DNA of 64,000 bases, taken from Syntrophobacteraceae bacterium (GTDB taxonomy: Bacteria > Desulfobacterota > Syntrophobacteria > Syntrophobacterales > Syntrophobacteraceae). The stretch spans positions 1 to 64,000 of the forward strand of contig JALOOX010000011.1 of NCBI GenBank assembly GCA_025454175.1. The letters are read 5' to 3'. Both the position numbers and the translations under genes were made by a program. Positions 35,492 to 43,295 of this stretch are shown here, one piece after another. Position 1 is the first letter of the stretch, and each line of letters starts with the position of its first letter. Below the pieces are notes generated by a model, which had not been told where the DNA came from, made no database searches, and was given only the letters and a program-made list of their open reading frames with translations.

Positions 35492-37090
35492 TTAGATGCT
35501 GAGGGTTTTGACCCGCCCGTAGGTCAAGAGGTAATCAAAGATGACCCGGGTGGCGATGATGGCGGTGAACATACTCGCGCAGATGCCTATGGTCAGCGTG
35601 ACCGCGAAGCCCCTCACGGGCCCGGTGCCGAACTGGAAGAGCACCACGGCTGCGATGAGGGTGGTGATGTTGGAGTCCAGGATGGTCCAGGTGGCCCTCT
35701 CGAAGCCCGCATCCACGGCTGCCCGGGGAGTCTTGCCGAGACGAAGCTCCTCCCTGATCCGCTCGAAAATGAGCACATTGGCATCGACGGCCATGCCCAC
35801 GGTGAGGATGATGCCGGCGATGCCGGGCAGGGTCAGGGTCGCCTCGAAGGCCGCGAGACACGCGAGAATCAGCGGGATGTTGAGGAGCAGGGCGAAGGTG
35901 GCGATGAGGCCCGAATGTCTGTAGTAGATGATCATGAAAACGATGGTGACCAGCCCTGCAAGCATGGACGCGACGAGCCCCTGCCGGATGGAGTCACTCC
36001 CGAGGGAAGCCCCGACCGTGCGCTGCTCGAGAATCTTCACCGGAGCCGGAAGAGCGCCGGCCCGCAATACGATGGCCAGGTCCCGGGCCTCCTCCATGGT
36101 GAAGGTCCCGGTGATGCTGGCCTTTCCGCCGCTGATGCGCTCCTGGATGACCGGCGCCGAGTACACGGTTCCATCCAGAACGATGGCCAGCTGCCGCTTC
36201 ACGTTTTCGCCGCTGATGCGCTCGAACTGGCGCGCCCCCTGGGAGTCGAACTCGAGGGACACGTAAGGCTTGTTATACTGGGTATCGATTGCCACTCCAG
36301 CATTGGTGATGGATTCCCCGGTCATCAGCGTGCGGTCCCGCAACGGAATCTGCCGTTCGGAAGTCTGTCCGGTTACCGCGTCCGTATGCCTCATGGGATA
36401 CATCCTGACTCCCGCCGGAAGTCTCCCGTCCCTCAACTGCTCGCTGCCGGCCTCCTCGGCAACCAGCTTGAACTCGAGGAGCGCCGTCTTTCCAATGAGC
36501 GCCACCGCCCGTTGCGGATCCTGGACCCCGGGAAGCTGGATCAGAATCCGGTCCTCTCCCTGGGGCCGGATATCGGGCTCGGTAACGCCGAACTGATCCA
36601 CGCGGTTGCGAATGGTTTCGAGGGCCTGCTCGGCGGCCAGTTTCTTCAGGTAACTGACCTGAGCCTCGGTGAAGGTGAAATCGGCCACCGCCCCTTCCGC
36701 CGTCGTTTGGGCACCTGCCGCCCTCAAAATCGGGTAGTCCTTTTCCATCAACCGGGTGAGATCGCCTTGAGCCTCGGTGCCGGCCAGCTGAATCTGGATA
36801 TCCCAGTTCCTGACGCGCTCGACGCGGGTGAAAGGGATCCGCTGCTGTCTCAGGGAATCCTTGATATCCTCCACCATGCGCTCAGCCTGATTCTGAACGG
36901 CCTTCTCCGCCTCGACCTCGAGGATCAGATGCATTCCACCCTGAAGATCCAGCCCCAGATGAATCCTTTCCTTGGGAAGGATCTTTGCCCACCAGGCGGG
37001 CAGTTCGGAACTGATCGACGGAATCAGCCAGACGATTCCCGCGAGCACAACCCCCGCCACCAGCAAAGCACGCCACTTGAGATTCTTCAA
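35492..37090 (-). CDS. secD: Protein translocase subunit SecD
   Basis: HLGLDLQGGMHLILEV..TVGMAVDANVLIFERIREEL. Confidence 0.96.
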   Translation of the reverse strand: MKNLKWRALLVAGVVLAGIVWLIPSISSELPAWWAKILPKERIHLGLDLQGGMHLILEVEAEKAVQNQAERMVEDIKDSLRQQRIPFTRVERVRNWDIQIQLAGTEAQGDLTRLMEKDYPILRAAGAQTTAEGAVADFTFTEAQVSYLKKLAAEQALETIRNRVDQFGVTEPDIRPQGEDRILIQLPGVQDPQRAVALIGKTALLEFKLVAEEAGSEQLRDGRLPAGVRMYPMRHTDAVTGQTSERQIPLRDRTLMTGESITNAGVAIDTQYNKPYVSLEFDSQGARQFERISGENVKRQLAIVLDGTVYSAPVIQERISGGKASITGTFTMEEARDLAIVLRAGALPAPVKILEQRTVGASLGSDSIRQGLVASMLAGLVTIVFMIIYYRHSGLIATFALLLNIPLILACLAAFEATLTLPGIAGIILTVGMAVDANVLIFERIREELRLGKTPRAAVDAGFERATWTILDSNITTLIAAVVLFQFGTGPVRGFAVTLTIGICASMFTAIIATRVIFDYLLTYGRVKTLSI

Positions 37091-37156
37091 CCCAAACCCC
37101 TTGCTAGATCAAAGGCTTCATCGGATGAACACCGAGCCTCGACTCTCGCGGCTTCT

Positions 37157-37498
37157 CTATTCTTCGGGCTCACCCTTGGAGACCACGCTCACGATATAAG
37201 CCCTCTGAATTTTGACTCGAACCTTTTCGGCGATCTCCACGGTGATCACGGTATCGGTCAATCCGGTGACCTTGCCCTGGAGTCCTCCCTGGGTGAGAAC
37301 GACGTCGCCCTTCTGAAGGGACGCGAGCATGGCCTTGTGGTCTTTTTGACGCTTCTGTTGAGGCCTGATGAGGAGGAAATAGAAGATCACCATCATGATG
37401 ATCAATGGACCAAACAGGCCCAATCCACCCGCGGCACCCTGTCCAGCTCCACCTTGTCCAGCCCCACCCATGGCATACGCCACGCTCATCCAATCCAT
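37157..37498 (-). CDS. yajC: Preprotein translocase subunit YajC
   Basis: IIMMVIFYFLLIRPQQKRQKDHKAMLASLQKGDVVLTQGGLQGKV. Confidence 0.94.
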   Translation of the reverse strand: MDWMSVAYAMGGAGQGGAGQGAAGGLGLFGPLIIMMVIFYFLLIRPQQKRQKDHKAMLASLQKGDVVLTQGGLQGKVTGLTDTVITVEIAEKVRVKIQRAYIVSVVSKGEPEE

Positions 37499-37667
37499 CG
37501 TATTCCTCCCTCGGAAGCCATCAAATCCAAACCATTCCCATTGATAAAACGTGCGTTTTTCCGCACAATCCAACCCACACGGCAGGCCAAGCGACGACAT
37601 GCCCAATCAAATCAAGTCGATACTTAAACGACATTTCGGCTTGAATGTCAACGGACTATGGCGCTCC

Positions 37668-38012
37668 TCACGGATTCCGGGAGAATCCCTTGAGGGACTC
37701 GTCCAGGTCCGGACGAATGGGCAGGAAGGAAGAAAATCCGGACATGTCGAAGACTTCCTGGATGTAGTCCCGGATGGAGCAGAGGCACATCCGACCACTC
37801 GTCTTTTTGAGCTCTTTCGTCGCCTTCAAGAGGACTCTCAGACCCGCGCTGGAAATGTAATCCAATTCCTGGAAATCCAGGATGAACCGATTTTCGCCCT
37901 CGTGCACCCTGTCCAGCAGCAACCTCTCAAATTCATCCGAGGTGTTGGAATCGAGCCGGCCTTTTACCGAAAGTACCACCACGCCTTCCATCCGCTTTTC
38001 CATTACATCCAT
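37668..38012 (-). CDS. STAS-domain anti-sigma factor antagonist
   Basis: VVVLSVKGRLDSNTSDEFERLL..FILDFQELDYISSAGLRVLLKATKELK. Confidence 0.9.
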   Translation of the reverse strand: MDVMEKRMEGVVVLSVKGRLDSNTSDEFERLLLDRVHEGENRFILDFQELDYISSAGLRVLLKATKELKKTSGRMCLCSIRDYIQEVFDMSGFSSFLPIRPDLDESLKGFSRNP

Positions 38013-38179
38013 GGAGCGCTCCTTCCACGCGGGATTATCAAGCTTTTCACCAACATATAAACCGCTTGTCACTTCGTCAACAAACATGTAAAGACCAGAA
38101 GGGCTTCCAAGGCCCCCATTCAATCTCTCTCGATCAAAACGCCCCTGTTCAACCCACTTCACAACAAGGCTCCCGGCCC

Positions 38180-40687
38180 ATGATCACCAGGCGTCCACTA
38201 TTCTACTGGGTCAAGACGAGCAACTGGAAACTGCAGATTCTGCTGCTCATCCTGATTGCAATCGGCGTTGCCACGCGGGTCTTTCCCCTGGAAATGCAGA
38301 AGCGCATCGTCAATCAGGCCATCGGCCTCGGCAGGGTCAACCTGCTTTTTCTCTATTGCGGACTTTACCTGGCGGCCGTCATTCTGGCCAGCGGGATCAA
38401 GTTCGTCATCAACGTGATACAGACACATCTCGGACAGCAGACCCTGGCCCGTCTGCGCAAGGAGCTCTATGCGCACATCCTCACGCTGCCCATGGGCTTT
38501 TTCAGGAGAACCTCCTCGGGGATGGTGGTTTCATCGCTGGTGACCGAGGTGGTGTCGGCGGGGGAGATGGTCGGCCAGGCCATCGCCGTGCCGGTCAACA
38601 ACATTCTCACCCTCCTGGCCTTCACGGGATACATGTTCTACCTGAACCCGCTCCTTGCGGGGCTCAGCCTGGTGATCTACCCGCTGATCCTGTTCTCCAT
38701 TCCGGCGCTGCAGCGGCGCGCCAACATAGAAAATAAGAACCGGGTGGACGCAACCCGCACCATGAGCAGCAAGATCGGCGAGACCATCTCGGGAATCCAC
38801 GAGGTCCACGGCAACGGGAGCTATCATATCGAAAACAGACGCTTCGCCGAGATCGTGGACCTGCTCTACCGCATCCGGGTGCGCTGGAACGTTTACCGCT
38901 ATGCCATCAAGGTGTTGAACAACCTCTTCCAGAACATGGGTCCTTTCATGCTGTTCATCGTGGGCGGGTATCTGGCCATCAGCGGTCGCTTTGACCTGGG
39001 TGCGCTGGTGGCCTTCCTTTCGGCCTACGAGAAGCTCTACGACCCATGGAGGGAGCTCATGGATTATTACCAGACTTATCAGGAGGCGAGTGTGAGCTAC
39101 CGGCGTTTGATGGAATACTTCGACGATCAGCCGGAGTTTGCCCTGTCGCCGCCGGATCGCCCACCATACGAGCTGGCGGCCTCGGTTCAGGTGCGCGACC
39201 TGTCCTTCAGCGTGGCTCCGCGCGTCCACCTGCTCCAAAAGGTGAGCTTTGACCTGGAGCCCGGCGAGTCGATGGCGCTGGTGGGCTTCTCGGGAAGCGG
39301 CAAGAGCACGCTGGTGCACTGCATCGGCCAGTTGTATCGGTACACGGGGGGAAGCGTTCAGATCGGTGGTCGTGAAGTGCATGAGCTCACCAAGCAGGAT
39401 TTGGTCCGCAATGCCGGCATTGTGGCCCAGACACCCTACATCTTCGACGGAACCATCAGGGAGAACCTGCTCTATGCCTGTCAGGCCATCCACGACCCGG
39501 AGGACGAGGATGCCCGCAAAAAACTCCCCAGCCTCGATGAGATGATCGAGGTCATCCAGCAGGTCGGATTGTTCGTCGATGTCCTGCGATTCGGCCTCAA
39601 CACGGTCATCGGAGAAGAGGAAGGCCAGGAGCTGCACGAGAAGCTCATCCGGATGCGGTACGGGTTCCAGAGCGAATTCGGAGAGGTCCTGGCCGATGAC
39701 ATCGAGTTTTTCGACATCAAGAGATACATGCTCTACTCGTCCGTCGCCGCCAACCTCACCTTTGGAACGGCCCTGCGGCAGGCTTTCGACCCGGAAACCC
39801 TCTCGATCAACGAATACTTCCTATGGTTTCTGGACAAGGCGGACCTCAAGGGGCCGCTGCTGGAGCTTGGGCGTGACGCAACCCTGCAGACCATGGACAT
39901 TCTGGGCAACATCGAGCCCGATGCCCTCTTTTTCGAGCAAAGCCCCATGGAGCCCGATGAATTCGATGAATACAGGGAGCTGTCCCAGCGGCTGGTCTCG
40001 TCGGGCATCGATGAGCTGAGCAGCGCCGACAGGGCCATGCTTCTGAGACTGGCCCTGAGATTCGTGGTCGGCAGCCATATGACGGGCGAGCTTCATCCTG
40101 GGCTCCAGGATGCTCTGGTGCGGGCAAGGAAGCAGTTCAGGGATCAGGTCCAGGCGGATCACCCCGATGCGTTCAGCTTTTACCGCATGTCGGGCTACCT
40201 GCCGACGCTCTCGATCCTCGACAATATCCTCTTCGGAAGGATCAGGGCCGATCTTCCCGGCGCCCAGGAGCGCATTGCGCAAAGCCTCATGCAGTTGCTC
40301 ATCGAGGAGGACCTCCTCGAGCGGATCGTGGAGATCGGCATGGACTTCCGGGTGGGTCCCAAGGGCGACAGGCTTTCGGGAGGGCAGCGGCAGAAGCTGG
40401 CCATCGCCCGGACCTTCCTCAAGCATTCGCCGCTCCTGATCCTGGATGAAGCCACCTCGGCCCTGGACAACGCCTCCCAGAAAAGGATTCAGAGCGTGCT
40501 GGAGACCCGATGGAAGGGCAGAAGCACCATCATAGCCGTGGCCCACCGGCTGGACACCATCCGGAACTATGATAAGATCGCCGTCATGAAGGCCGGCAGG
40601 ATCGTGGAGATGGGCGCATTCGAAGAACTTCTCGAAAGGAAAGGAATCCTGTATGAGCTCGTCCACGGAGTCAAGGCAGACCTCTAA
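38180..40687 (+). CDS. ABC exporter (TMD-NBD) with large insertion between Walker A and the signature motif
   Basis: TMD; Walker A GFSGSGKST; signature LSGGQRQKLAIA; Walker B LLILDEATSALD; about 355 aa between Walker A and signature. Confidence 0.87.
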   Translation: MITRRPLFYWVKTSNWKLQILLLILIAIGVATRVFPLEMQKRIVNQAIGLGRVNLLFLYCGLYLAAVILASGIKFVINVIQTHLGQQTLARLRKELYAHILTLPMGFFRRTSSGMVVSSLVTEVVSAGEMVGQAIAVPVNNILTLLAFTGYMFYLNPLLAGLSLVIYPLILFSIPALQRRANIENKNRVDATRTMSSKIGETISGIHEVHGNGSYHIENRRFAEIVDLLYRIRVRWNVYRYAIKVLNNLFQNMGPFMLFIVGGYLAISGRFDLGALVAFLSAYEKLYDPWRELMDYYQTYQEASVSYRRLMEYFDDQPEFALSPPDRPPYELAASVQVRDLSFSVAPRVHLLQKVSFDLEPGESMALVGFSGSGKSTLVHCIGQLYRYTGGSVQIGGREVHELTKQDLVRNAGIVAQTPYIFDGTIRENLLYACQAIHDPEDEDARKKLPSLDEMIEVIQQVGLFVDVLRFGLNTVIGEEEGQELHEKLIRMRYGFQSEFGEVLADDIEFFDIKRYMLYSSVAANLTFGTALRQAFDPETLSINEYFLWFLDKADLKGPLLELGRDATLQTMDILGNIEPDALFFEQSPMEPDEFDEYRELSQRLVSSGIDELSSADRAMLLRLALRFVVGSHMTGELHPGLQDALVRARKQFRDQVQADHPDAFSFYRMSGYLPTLSILDNILFGRIRADLPGAQERIAQSLMQLLIEEDLLERIVEIGMDFRVGPKGDRLSGGQRQKLAIARTFLKHSPLLILDEATSALDNASQKRIQSVLETRWKGRSTIIAVAHRLDTIRNYDKIAVMKAGRIVEMGAFEELLERKGILYELVHGVKADL

Positions 40688-41171
40688 GGAATTCAACGAG
40701 AATCTGCAGCTTCTCATGCATCTTCCCATGCTTTCCGGCCTGCCCATGGAGCCGCTCAAGCTGCTGGCCTATCTGTGCCGCCGCCAGGTCTTCAGGCCCG
40801 GCGAGATCATCTTCCACCAGGAAGACCTCGACCCCAACGCCTACCTCATCATCTCGGGCAGAGCGCAACTGATGCTGGAGCATCCCCAGGAGCTGGAGCT
40901 CATCGAAATCGGCGAGCGGCAGCTTGTCGGGGGGCTCTCCCTGTTCTGCGAAATGAAGAGGATCTACACCCTGAAGGCTCAAACCGAGGTGGTGACCCTC
41001 ACCCTGTCCCGCGAGAAATTCCAGAAGACCCTGGAGCAGTATCCCGACATAGGCCCCCGAATCTTCGAGGCAACGGCGAGATCCGTCATCCAGTGGGAGA
41101 CTCACTTCGTGAGGGAGCACCTCTCCAGGTGCACCGAATGTCGAAATCGCATGGGAATTCCCCCCACATAG
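40653..41171 (+). CDS. Cyclic-nucleotide-binding-domain protein
   Basis: CRRQVFRPGEIIFHQEDLDPNAYLIISGRAQLML..LVGGLSLFCEMKRIYTLKAQTEVVTLTLSREKF. Confidence 0.82.
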   Translation: MSSSTESRQTSKEFNENLQLLMHLPMLSGLPMEPLKLLAYLCRRQVFRPGEIIFHQEDLDPNAYLIISGRAQLMLEHPQELELIEIGERQLVGGLSLFCEMKRIYTLKAQTEVVTLTLSREKFQKTLEQYPDIGPRIFEATARSVIQWETHFVREHLSRCTECRNRMGIPPT

Positions 41172-41175
41172 GGTC

Positions 41176-41589
41176 TTGAGAGCCATGACCAGTCTCCGAA
41201 TGCCTGCCAAGCCGGAAAACCTCCACCAGCTCCAGGCCTGTGTCATGGACACGGTCGGGCAAATGGGCGCTTCATCCAAGGGGTTGTTCAGGATCGAGTT
41301 TGCGCTGGAGGAAATCCTGAGTAATGTCAACAAGTATGCCTATGCCGACGGAGAAGGGGACGTCGAGGTCGAGTGCCGCATCGAACCGAAGGGTGTGCTC
41401 AGGATCAGCATTCGAGACTGGGGCGCTCCATTCGATCCCACCGCGTGCCCGACCCCGGATATCTGTCAGGATGCCTGTGAGAGGCCCCTTGGCGGAATGG
41501 GCGTTTTTCTGACCCGACAGTTGGCGGGGGAGCTGATCTACGAGCGACTCCCCGATGGAAACAGGCTGACGATCCTTTTTCAAATCTGA
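41176..41589 (+). CDS. RsbW-like serine-kinase-type ATPase
   Basis: GLFRIEFALEEILSNVNKYAY..LRISIRDWGAPFDP..GGMGVFLTRQL (HATPase N/G boxes). Confidence 0.88.
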   Translation: MRAMTSLRMPAKPENLHQLQACVMDTVGQMGASSKGLFRIEFALEEILSNVNKYAYADGEGDVEVECRIEPKGVLRISIRDWGAPFDPTACPTPDICQDACERPLGGMGVFLTRQLAGELIYERLPDGNRLTILFQI

Positions 41590-41603
41590 AGAAGGGCTTC
41601 CCT

Positions 41604-42230
41604 TCATTGAGGAAGGAACCACTCGATGTCGATCTTCTCAGGCATGAGCGCGGGGTGGGTCTCGGCTTTCTGCTCCTGTCGTTTCTCCCTGTAGCACGCG
41701 GTCTCTTCGTCGATGAAGCTGCTGTTGGTCAGACGAATGGAGTTGCCCGGAGTGAACGAGTCGTCATCGCCGACATAGTGCTGCAAAATGATGCTCACTC
41801 GTTTGCCTTCCGAGTCTCTGAGGGACCATTTCCAGATTCTGAGGGTCCCGAAGGGGTTTCCGCGCCACTCCGTGGGTTTGCCGTAGCGCTTGGTGATGGC
41901 GGAATGGAGCTTGTTGTAGAAGGCCTGGCTGTCGTCTTCGTAGGTGAGCTTGACGCGGACGACTCTGCCCTTGCGAGCACAGTTGCCATAGACAACGTAG
42001 CCGCTCTGGTAGCCGCGCGCCGGTCGGAGGGGGGCACGCATCAGGTACTGGCTTCCCCAAAGCGGGACCGCCGAGCCCAGGTCCACCATGTCCTTGATCT
42101 CCTCGATCTGGCTGCCCAGCCGAACACCCACAATGGATTGAGGAGCGGCGGCCTGGGCCTGTGAGACACAAAGCGCCAGGCCGACGAGAATCCCGCAGAA
42201 AACGGATGGCACTGCTCGACTCATATTCAA
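41604..42230 (-). CDS. Secreted hypothetical protein
   Basis: Signal peptide VFCGILVGLALCVSQAQAA; family not recognised. Confidence 0.65.
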   Translation of the reverse strand: MNMSRAVPSVFCGILVGLALCVSQAQAAAPQSIVGVRLGSQIEEIKDMVDLGSAVPLWGSQYLMRAPLRPARGYQSGYVVYGNCARKGRVVRVKLTYEDDSQAFYNKLHSAITKRYGKPTEWRGNPFGTLRIWKWSLRDSEGKRVSIILQHYVGDDDSFTPGNSIRLTNSSFIDEETACYREKRQEQKAETHPALMPEKIDIEWFLPQ

Positions 42231-42356
42231 CCTCCCCCAGAAACAGGTTTGAGATTCACGTCCAAGCCACGGGATCGGGGCCAGCCGGCAGATTGTGGAT
42301 TTGACCGCGTGCCTGGCTCAACAATGCTCAAAGCCCTTCCCCGATGATGATCACCC

Positions 42357-43295
42357 TTGATTTTTAGCCTTTATCGTTCCATTGTGCAATGGAGGCCGTC
42401 GGAATTTGGCTCTGTCTTTGGGGGCGGCCGTTCGGTGCTGGACAAGCCCGGCGAGGATGCCGATCCGGAGGTGACTGGAGTGATTGATCTGGACTATCTG
42501 GGAAAACTGGCCAGGGAGGCGGGCCGGGCCATCCTTGAGGTGTACCGTACCGACTTCGCGGTGGAAGACAAGGACGACAAATCTCCCCTGACCCTGGCGG
42601 ACACGCGATCCCACCACATCATCTCCGAGGGTCTCAGGGGCAGGTACCCCGACATCCCCGTGCTTTCGGAGGAAGGCAGGGAAACCTCCTACGACATTCG
42701 AAGACGTTGGCCTCGATTCTGGCTGGTGGACCCGCTGGACGGAACCAAGGAGTTCGTCAAGCGCAACGACGAGTTCACCATCAACATCGCTCTCGTGGAA
42801 GGGCGGTCACCTGTTTTGGGGCTCATCTACCTGCCTGTTTTCGACAGGCTTTACGTGGGGGATATGGCCGAGGGCTGCTGGGAGGTGGCCGAAGGCGAAG
42901 CTCGACGCCTGCGGGTCCGGGAGCCCGAGGGCACGGCCCCGGTTCGGGTGGTCAAGAGCCGCTCCCATCCATCCCCCAACCTGCAGCTGCTCCTGGAAAA
43001 GCTTCCGGGGCATGAGGTCCTCACCCGCGGAAGCGCATTAAAGTTTTGTGCCGTGGCTCGGGGCGACGCGGATTTCTATCCGCGCTTCGGCCCCACCTGG
43101 GAATGGGATACGGCAGCGGGCCAGGCCATCGTCACGGCGGCAGGCGGGGTTTTGGTGGACCCGTGGGGCCAGCCTTTCCTTTATAACAAGGAAACTTTGC
43201 TGAACGGTCCCTTCCTGGTCGCCGGCAGCCTGGGATGGCTCAACACCACGGGGATTCTCGAAGTCGCCGCAAGTATCGCCCGGGACCGCCCATGA
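42357..43295 (+). CDS. cysQ: 3'(2'),5'-bisphosphate nucleotidase / inositol-monophosphatase family (CysQ-like); true start possibly GTG near 42480
   Basis: SPLTLADTRSHHIISEGL..VLSEEGRETSYDIR..FWLVDPLDGTKEFVKRNDEFTINIAL. Confidence 0.88.
   Translation: MIFSLYRSIVQWRPSEFGSVFGGGRSVLDKPGEDADPEVTGVIDLDYLGKLAREAGRAILEVYRTDFAVEDKDDKSPLTLADTRSHHIISEGLRGRYPDIPVLSEEGRETSYDIRRRWPRFWLVDPLDGTKEFVKRNDEFTINIALVEGRSPVLGLIYLPVFDRLYVGDMAEGCWEVAEGEARRLRVREPEGTAPVRVVKSRSHPSPNLQLLLEKLPGHEVLTRGSALKFCAVARGDADFYPRFGPTWEWDTAAGQAIVTAAGGVLVDPWGQPFLYNKETLLNGPFLVAGSLGWLNTTGILEVAASIARDRP

Follow-up and report, generated by a model that had tools for sequence, protein, structure and literature searches.

The exporter gene and its surroundings

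The window analyzed here, a stretch of 64,000 nucleotides from a Syntrophobacteraceae bacterium, carries a gene for a half-size ABC exporter with a single nucleotide-binding domain (NBD), set among genes for cNMP-fold, HATPase and STAS proteins. The features of the locus are as follows.

37668..38162, minus strand: STAS/anti-sigma-factor-antagonist-type protein, divergent from the exporter (Pfam PF01740, 6.4e-22)
38180..40687, plus strand: half-size ABC exporter of 835 aa with a tripled helical module in the NBD (open reading frame, Pfam and homologue alignment)
38249..39025, plus strand: transmembrane domain (TMD), PF00664 ABC_membrane, residues 24-282 (Pfam, 7.1e-27)
39284..39310, plus strand: Walker A GFSGSGKST, residues 369-377 (K375 in 95/95 Desulfobacterota-type homologues)
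39392..39658, plus strand: Unit 1 (U1), residues 405-493, with the true Q-loop Q417 and the invariant N429 and R493, without a signature
39659..40129, plus strand: Unit 2 (U2), residues 494-650, with a Q-loop-like stretch lacking the Gln and the invariant N525 and R650
40130..40414, plus strand: Unit 3 (U3), residues 651-745, with the signature, a Q-loop-like stretch lacking the Gln and the invariant N682 and R744
40373..40387, plus strand: ABC signature LSGGQ, residues 732-736 (sequence and homologue alignment)
40430..40450, plus strand: Walker B and catalytic Glu, PLLILDE, residues 751-757 (homologue alignment)
40544..40546, plus strand: H-loop His789 (homologue alignment)
40653..41171, plus strand: cNMP-binding-fold protein (PF00027), the conserved partner, whose start overlaps the exporter stop by 35 nt
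41176..41589, plus strand: HATPase_c_2/RsbW-like anti-sigma-type kinase (Pfam PF13581, 7.1e-20)
41604..42230, minus strand: uncharacterised protein of cluster 5, without a Pfam match and of uncertain membership in the system

By family, the window protein is an ABC exporter. Its ABC_membrane TMD followed by one NBD is the arrangement of type IV, ABCB/MsbA-like exporters, with which it shares the common TMD fold, the half-transporter layout and the Walker A, Q-loop, signature, Walker B, D-loop and H-loop. From this layout we assume that it forms a homodimer. The best NCBIfam match was MsbA (TIGR02203) at 337.5 bits, which is under the equivalog cut-off of 602, and the exporter differs from MsbA/ABCB proteins by about 255 surplus residues between the Q-loop and the signature and by its linkage to a cNMP gene. 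The first Q-loop is AQTPYIFDGTIRENLLY, which contains Q417, and the PF00005 ABC_tran match (1.5e-27) is split into two stretches. From the start of Walker A to the signature the exporter spans 363 aa, compared with 104-108 aa in 16 ordinary exporters of related genomes, which leaves about 255-260 surplus residues in the NBD. The original prediction had put this distance at about 355 aa rather than the usual 100 or so and the insertion at about 250 aa, and both estimates agree well with the computed values. A distance of about 100 aa is usual but non-defining, and the long spacing is thus a departure inside the ABC superfamily and no ground for exclusion from it.

The extra region (residues 441-665) is acidic, with a pI of 4.43, and a search with this region alone, a check that had been suggested with the original prediction, returned no match in Pfam or among PDB sequences, in line with its earlier description as an acidic uncharacterised segment. 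An Rfam search of window positions 36000-43000 also returned no match. Misassembly, a frameshift or chance as the source of the long spacing was ruled out because the tripled architecture recurs as an open reading frame in 24 homologues, drawn from 20 of the 297 genomes sampled across the phylum, and in 95/95 near-full-length homologues compared.

Three related units within one NBD

In an ABC protein, ATP binding is coupled to the membrane domain through the helical subdomain. The 24 homologues could be aligned over their whole length, and this alignment was cut into U1, U2 and U3 at the boundaries listed above (residues 405-493, 494-650 and 651-745) and the resulting profiles were compared with hhalign. 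Comparison between units gave 2.6e-5 for U1-U2, 1.9e-6 for U1-U3 and 1.1e-10 for U2-U3, and comparison with the Q-loop/helical region of ordinary NBDs gave 1.8e-10, 1.7e-4 and 5.9e-22 for U1, U2 and U3, respectively. Controls with four other segments of the exporter scored 0.019 or worse, the exception being the true match between the C-terminal core and ordinary NBDs. The same repeat test on 17 alphaproteobacterial sequences yielded 5.8e-6, 2.2e-7 and 9.4e-13, with a weak similarity of the alphaproteobacterial U2 to ordinary NBDs (0.0025). Similarity between units is confined to the first 60-75 residues of each, and the likeness of U2 to ordinary NBDs to about 43 residues. The strongest similarity is that between U2 and U3, a pattern suggesting, as far as sequence comparison goes, that the triplication arose stepwise.

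Across 113 homologues, the fully invariant positions of region 405-745 are N429, R493, N525, R650, N682, G686, G729 and R744, so that every unit has a single invariant Asn and a single invariant Arg, and U3 has two invariant glycines besides (113/113). The three Asn are matched to each other by the profile alignments, and the three Arg are taken as equivalent because each lies in the helix that closes its unit. Ordinary exporters have the matching Asn (..TIxxNI) and Arg (LSGGQ....AR) once only, in 16/16 cases each. The Q-loop Gln is invariant in U1 only and the signature occurs in U3 only, while U2 additionally has extra helices and the conserved residues P589 and H633. A second pseudo-Q-loop, SGYLPTLSILDNILFG, had been noticed originally and is real, but the middle stretch, EFFDIKRYMLYSSVAANLTFG (residues 509-529), had been overlooked, so that the NBD holds three such stretches and not two.

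An AlphaFold2 model built on the NBD alignment (pLDDT 91, pTM 0.84; residue = model number + 327) contains three matching strand/N-helix/R-helix units. Each is predicted to have one strand (412-415, 508-510 and 665-667), a short Asn-bearing helix (426-437, 522-527 and 679-684) and a long Arg-bearing helix (483-500, 640-660 and 734-748). Foldseek aligned the model with a single NBD of human TAP1 (TMt 0.88, 504 columns over 251 residues), so that the canonical core fold is retained and the remainder is an excursion from the core. When U2 was predicted alone it reached a pLDDT of 88.9, with a second half that has diverged and gained helices, and no solved fold matched this model in a search against PDB folds. 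Support for the repeat therefore comes from the profile comparisons, from the invariant N/R pairs and from the order of secondary-structure elements in the NBD model.

We conclude that the extra region is shown by computation to be two further divergent Q-loop/helical-subdomain copies within one otherwise complete NBD, with an N/R pair in each of the three units. The two explanations offered originally were each right in part: the surplus does lie in the helical subdomain, although as further copies of it rather than as an inserted foreign domain, and the copies are indeed NBD-derived, although the single Walker A, Walker B and H-loop leave no room for a second NBD. That a foreign regulatory domain entered the helical subdomain and resembles a Q-loop by chance is very improbable in our view, since all three units are significantly similar in two clades with clean controls and the N/R residues are invariant at matching places in every unit; such an origin would nevertheless accommodate the roughly 60 extra residues of U2 with their conserved P589 and H633, the lack of a solved-structure match and the restriction of profile similarity to the first 60-75 residues. 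If two or three partial NBDs had fused, each contributing to nucleotide binding, the three Q-loop-like stretches would be accounted for, yet the protein has a single Walker A, signature, Walker B and H-loop, lacks the Q-loop Gln in U2 and U3, and aligns as a model with one NBD only, and we give this explanation almost no credence.

Distribution, partner genes and ATP sites of the family

An alignment of the TMD scanned against 84,980 species genomes found 238 relatives, and the best 80 of the 238, which were retained, all came from Desulfobacterota or delta-labelled records bar one Aminicenantes record. This record (L052, Candidatus Aminicenantes) was rejected as a sign of spread, because it is identical in the tree to a Desulfobacteraceae contig (L053) and is thus probably misbinned. 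Several genomes carry two copies, from clade A, the window's own, and clade B. In a plasmid collection, 243 records, nearly all Rhizobium and Sinorhizobium, were found with the insertion as query. Querying with the S. meliloti protein gave 263 records, among them Ruegeria, Azospirillum, Sulfitobacter, Methylobacterium and Tritonibacter; these plasmid records make up the alphaproteobacterial evidence. In the tree, a branch with full support separates the alphaproteobacterial rows from the others; the placement of the long Methylobacterium and Azospirillum branches is uncertain. A search of viral contigs for the family found none. An apparent fusion of the ABC protein to a 590-aa N-terminal part in L072 was rejected by inspection as an out-of-frame reading of GC-rich DNA. 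In S. meliloti 1021 pSymB (L168, 5001-7710) and S. fredii NGR234 (L182) the N-terminal part of the homologue lies in a different frame from the rest, unlike other strains in which it is intact (e.g. L166), which reflects either a true frameshift or a sequence error.

Computation shows a near-universal pairing of the exporter with a cNMP gene. It adjoins the exporter on the same strand at 86 of 90 loci (65/67 in clade A, 15/16 in clade B and 6/7 elsewhere), mostly overlapping the exporter stop codon, and it also follows the rhizobial homologues. The cNMP domain is fused to the C-terminus of the ABC protein in Ruegeria, Tritonibacter, Azospirillum and Hyphomicrobiales UR115, as established by Pfam for two Ruegeria proteins and by alignment for the others; near the Methylobacterium homologue, no cNMP gene was found. 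This adjacency is a sign of functional linkage rather than of a docking site. The Glu of the phosphate-binding cassette is present in 2/69 cNMP partners in Desulfobacterota and in 10/10 in rhizobia, and in the window's cNMP protein GG replaces GE with the Arg kept, so that the G-E plus Arg pattern of CRP-type receptors is incomplete. The loss of this residue suggests that a cyclic nucleotide may not be the ligand in Desulfobacterota and that the ligand may differ between the branches. A class III cyclase-type gene lies upstream of the UR115 homologue (an open reading frame whose domain was read by eye), and an adenylate-cyclase-type gene is annotated near the R. daejeonense homologue.

Genes of the partner-switching type are also shown to be frequent neighbors in clade A, with STAS at 52/61, HATPase at 47/64 and SpoIIE phosphatase at 27/61 loci. 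The STAS gene lies downstream of the exporter on the same strand in most relatives, whereas in the window it is divergent and upstream. The window's genome has three SpoIIE domains, all on other contigs and none adjoining the exporter. Clade B has the cNMP gene but STAS/HATPase at 0/15 loci and SpoIIE at 1/17, which indicates that the design can do without partner switching.

Several other neighbors recurred. Cluster 5 (~205 aa, without a Pfam match) was present at 30/55 clade A loci, among them L089 and L057, and is accompanied there by two further proteins, one PqqD-like (28/58) and one of ~298 aa that likewise has no Pfam match (26/54); in L152 all three are encoded downstream on the exporter's strand. 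Directly 3′ of the ABC-cNMP fusion in Ruegeria L170 and L177 is a CAAX-type endopeptidase gene. Clade B exporters L147, L151 and L156-L158 have rubrerythrin-like, flavoprotein-like and Fur/PerR-like genes nearby (identified by eye), suggesting an oxygen-stress neighborhood. The rhizobial homologues L165, L167, L175 and L181 sit downstream of three glycosyltransferase genes, and this branch may be tied to surface glycan.

The state of the ATP site separates the two branches. K375, Q417, SGGQ, D756, E757 and H789 are kept in 95/95 Desulfobacterota-type homologues. The Walker A Lys is gone from 16 of 17 alphaproteobacterial proteins and the Walker B Glu from all but one, and none of the 17 retains the Q-loop Gln, the signature Ser or the H-loop His. 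All three Asn and all three Arg nevertheless persist in 17/17. When dN/dS was computed for six pairs, no measurable segment exceeded 0.22, destroyed motif regions included, with some dS near saturation, and these low values argue that the proteins are maintained and are not decaying genes. Because the ATP sites are destroyed and the modules intact in relatives from root-nodule bacteria, the extra modules probably regulate rather than power the protein.

Proposed regulated export and alternative explanations

The reading we favor, and consider rather probable, is that of a regulated exporter whose extra helical subdomains dock and gate cNMP- and STAS-type regulators, with a non-pumping branch. 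The protein is an exporter of the MsbA/ABCB type in which the segment from Q-loop to signature, the helical subdomain, has been triplicated; U1 would provide the working Q-loop and U3 the working signature, and U2 together with the non-catalytic halves of U1 and U3 would form an extra acidic helical platform on each NBD. The cNMP-fold partner may sit on these extra units and control how the NBD dimer opens and closes. In clade A the STAS protein probably docks as well, with its phosphorylation presumably set by the HATPase kinase against the SpoIIE phosphatase. These regulators would switch an ATP-driven, putative exporter on and off in Desulfobacterota, and the alphaproteobacterial version of this scaffold is probably a nucleotide-responsive membrane switch that needs no ATP hydrolysis. 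The regulation, docking and gating set out here, along with any ligand and substrate, are what we infer.

Two characterized systems make parts of the docking and gating model plausible. In MlaFEDB, the STAS protein MlaB binds the helical subdomain of the NBD MlaF (PMC7367683), a precedent for the STAS genes found near clade A exporters; MlaFEDB has an MlaE-type permease TMD where the exporter has PF00664, and the neighbors here, putative interaction partners of the exporter, form a fuller STAS/HATPase/SpoIIE set. HetC of Nostoc PCC 7120 is a peptidase-containing ABC exporter whose cNMP domain binds ppGpp and is required for function (PMC10986499), and by analogy nucleotide regulation is plausible for the window exporter too. 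HetC differs in having a C39 peptidase and an N-terminal cNMP domain, whereas in this family the cNMP protein is encoded separately downstream or is joined to the C-terminus of the exporter, and no peptidase domain, such as the N-terminal C39 of HetC/PCAT proteins, was among the Pfam matches of the window exporter. The neighborhood of clade A exporters also resembles RsbU/RsbV/RsbW in its set of STAS, HATPase_c_2 and SpoIIE, of which STAS and HATPase_c_2 are present in the window; here the exporter is the constant companion, the set is absent from clade B, and no sigma factor was seen in the recurrent neighbor clusters.

It has to be considered that the extra units are purely structural or substrate-specific, bracing an unusual TMD or holding the dimer, and that the cNMP and STAS genes regulate something else nearby. 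The Asn/Arg pairs do look fold-stabilizing, because ordinary exporters have them too, and U2 is predicted with confidence to fold alone. We nonetheless regard this as unlikely, given that the cNMP gene adjoins or overlaps the exporter at 86/90 loci in clades with otherwise different neighbors and, in several Alphaproteobacteria, has become part of the ABC gene itself. More doubtful still is the proposal that the whole family is primarily a membrane signaling device and not a pump, in which hydrolysis would serve signaling in Desulfobacterota and was dispensed with in Alphaproteobacteria. The conserved dead-ATPase branch, the cNMP fusions, the partner-switching neighbors and the class III cyclase-type genes near the UR115 and R. 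daejeonense homologues are compatible with it, but 95/95 Desulfobacterota members have an intact TMD and a full set of ATPase motifs.

The original prediction had left room for the insertion being common to a well-described ABC subfamily; the subfamily proved widespread, and in the open-access literature searched, where absence is no proof, we found no description of a tripled-helical-module ABC family with an N/R pair in each module, a cNMP partner at nearly every locus and a dead-ATPase branch that is conserved. It is possible, and we propose it tentatively, that these proteins constitute a new ABC family whose tripled helical subdomain serves regulators as a docking platform, and that its alphaproteobacterial members have become an ATPase-dead, cNMP-controlled membrane switch or gated pathway.

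CFTR and SUR-type proteins are ABC proteins that no longer pump. The alphaproteobacterial branch resembles them as an exporter-derived ABC protein retained with degenerate ATP sites, and differs in that essentially every ATPase motif is gone and a channel function is putative. If the alphaproteobacterial proteins do act as such a switch or gated pathway, bacteria would have arrived independently at a counterpart to these non-pump ABC proteins. A family with three helical subdomains per NBD and a cNMP-type sensor nearly always beside or fused to it lends itself to asking how NBD-bound proteins switch ABC transporters. In the ATP-dead branch, where the modules are untouched, regulation can be told apart from catalysis, which suggests that the modules have a function in their own right. 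Since several laboratory rhizobia carry a homologue, the question is open to genetic testing.
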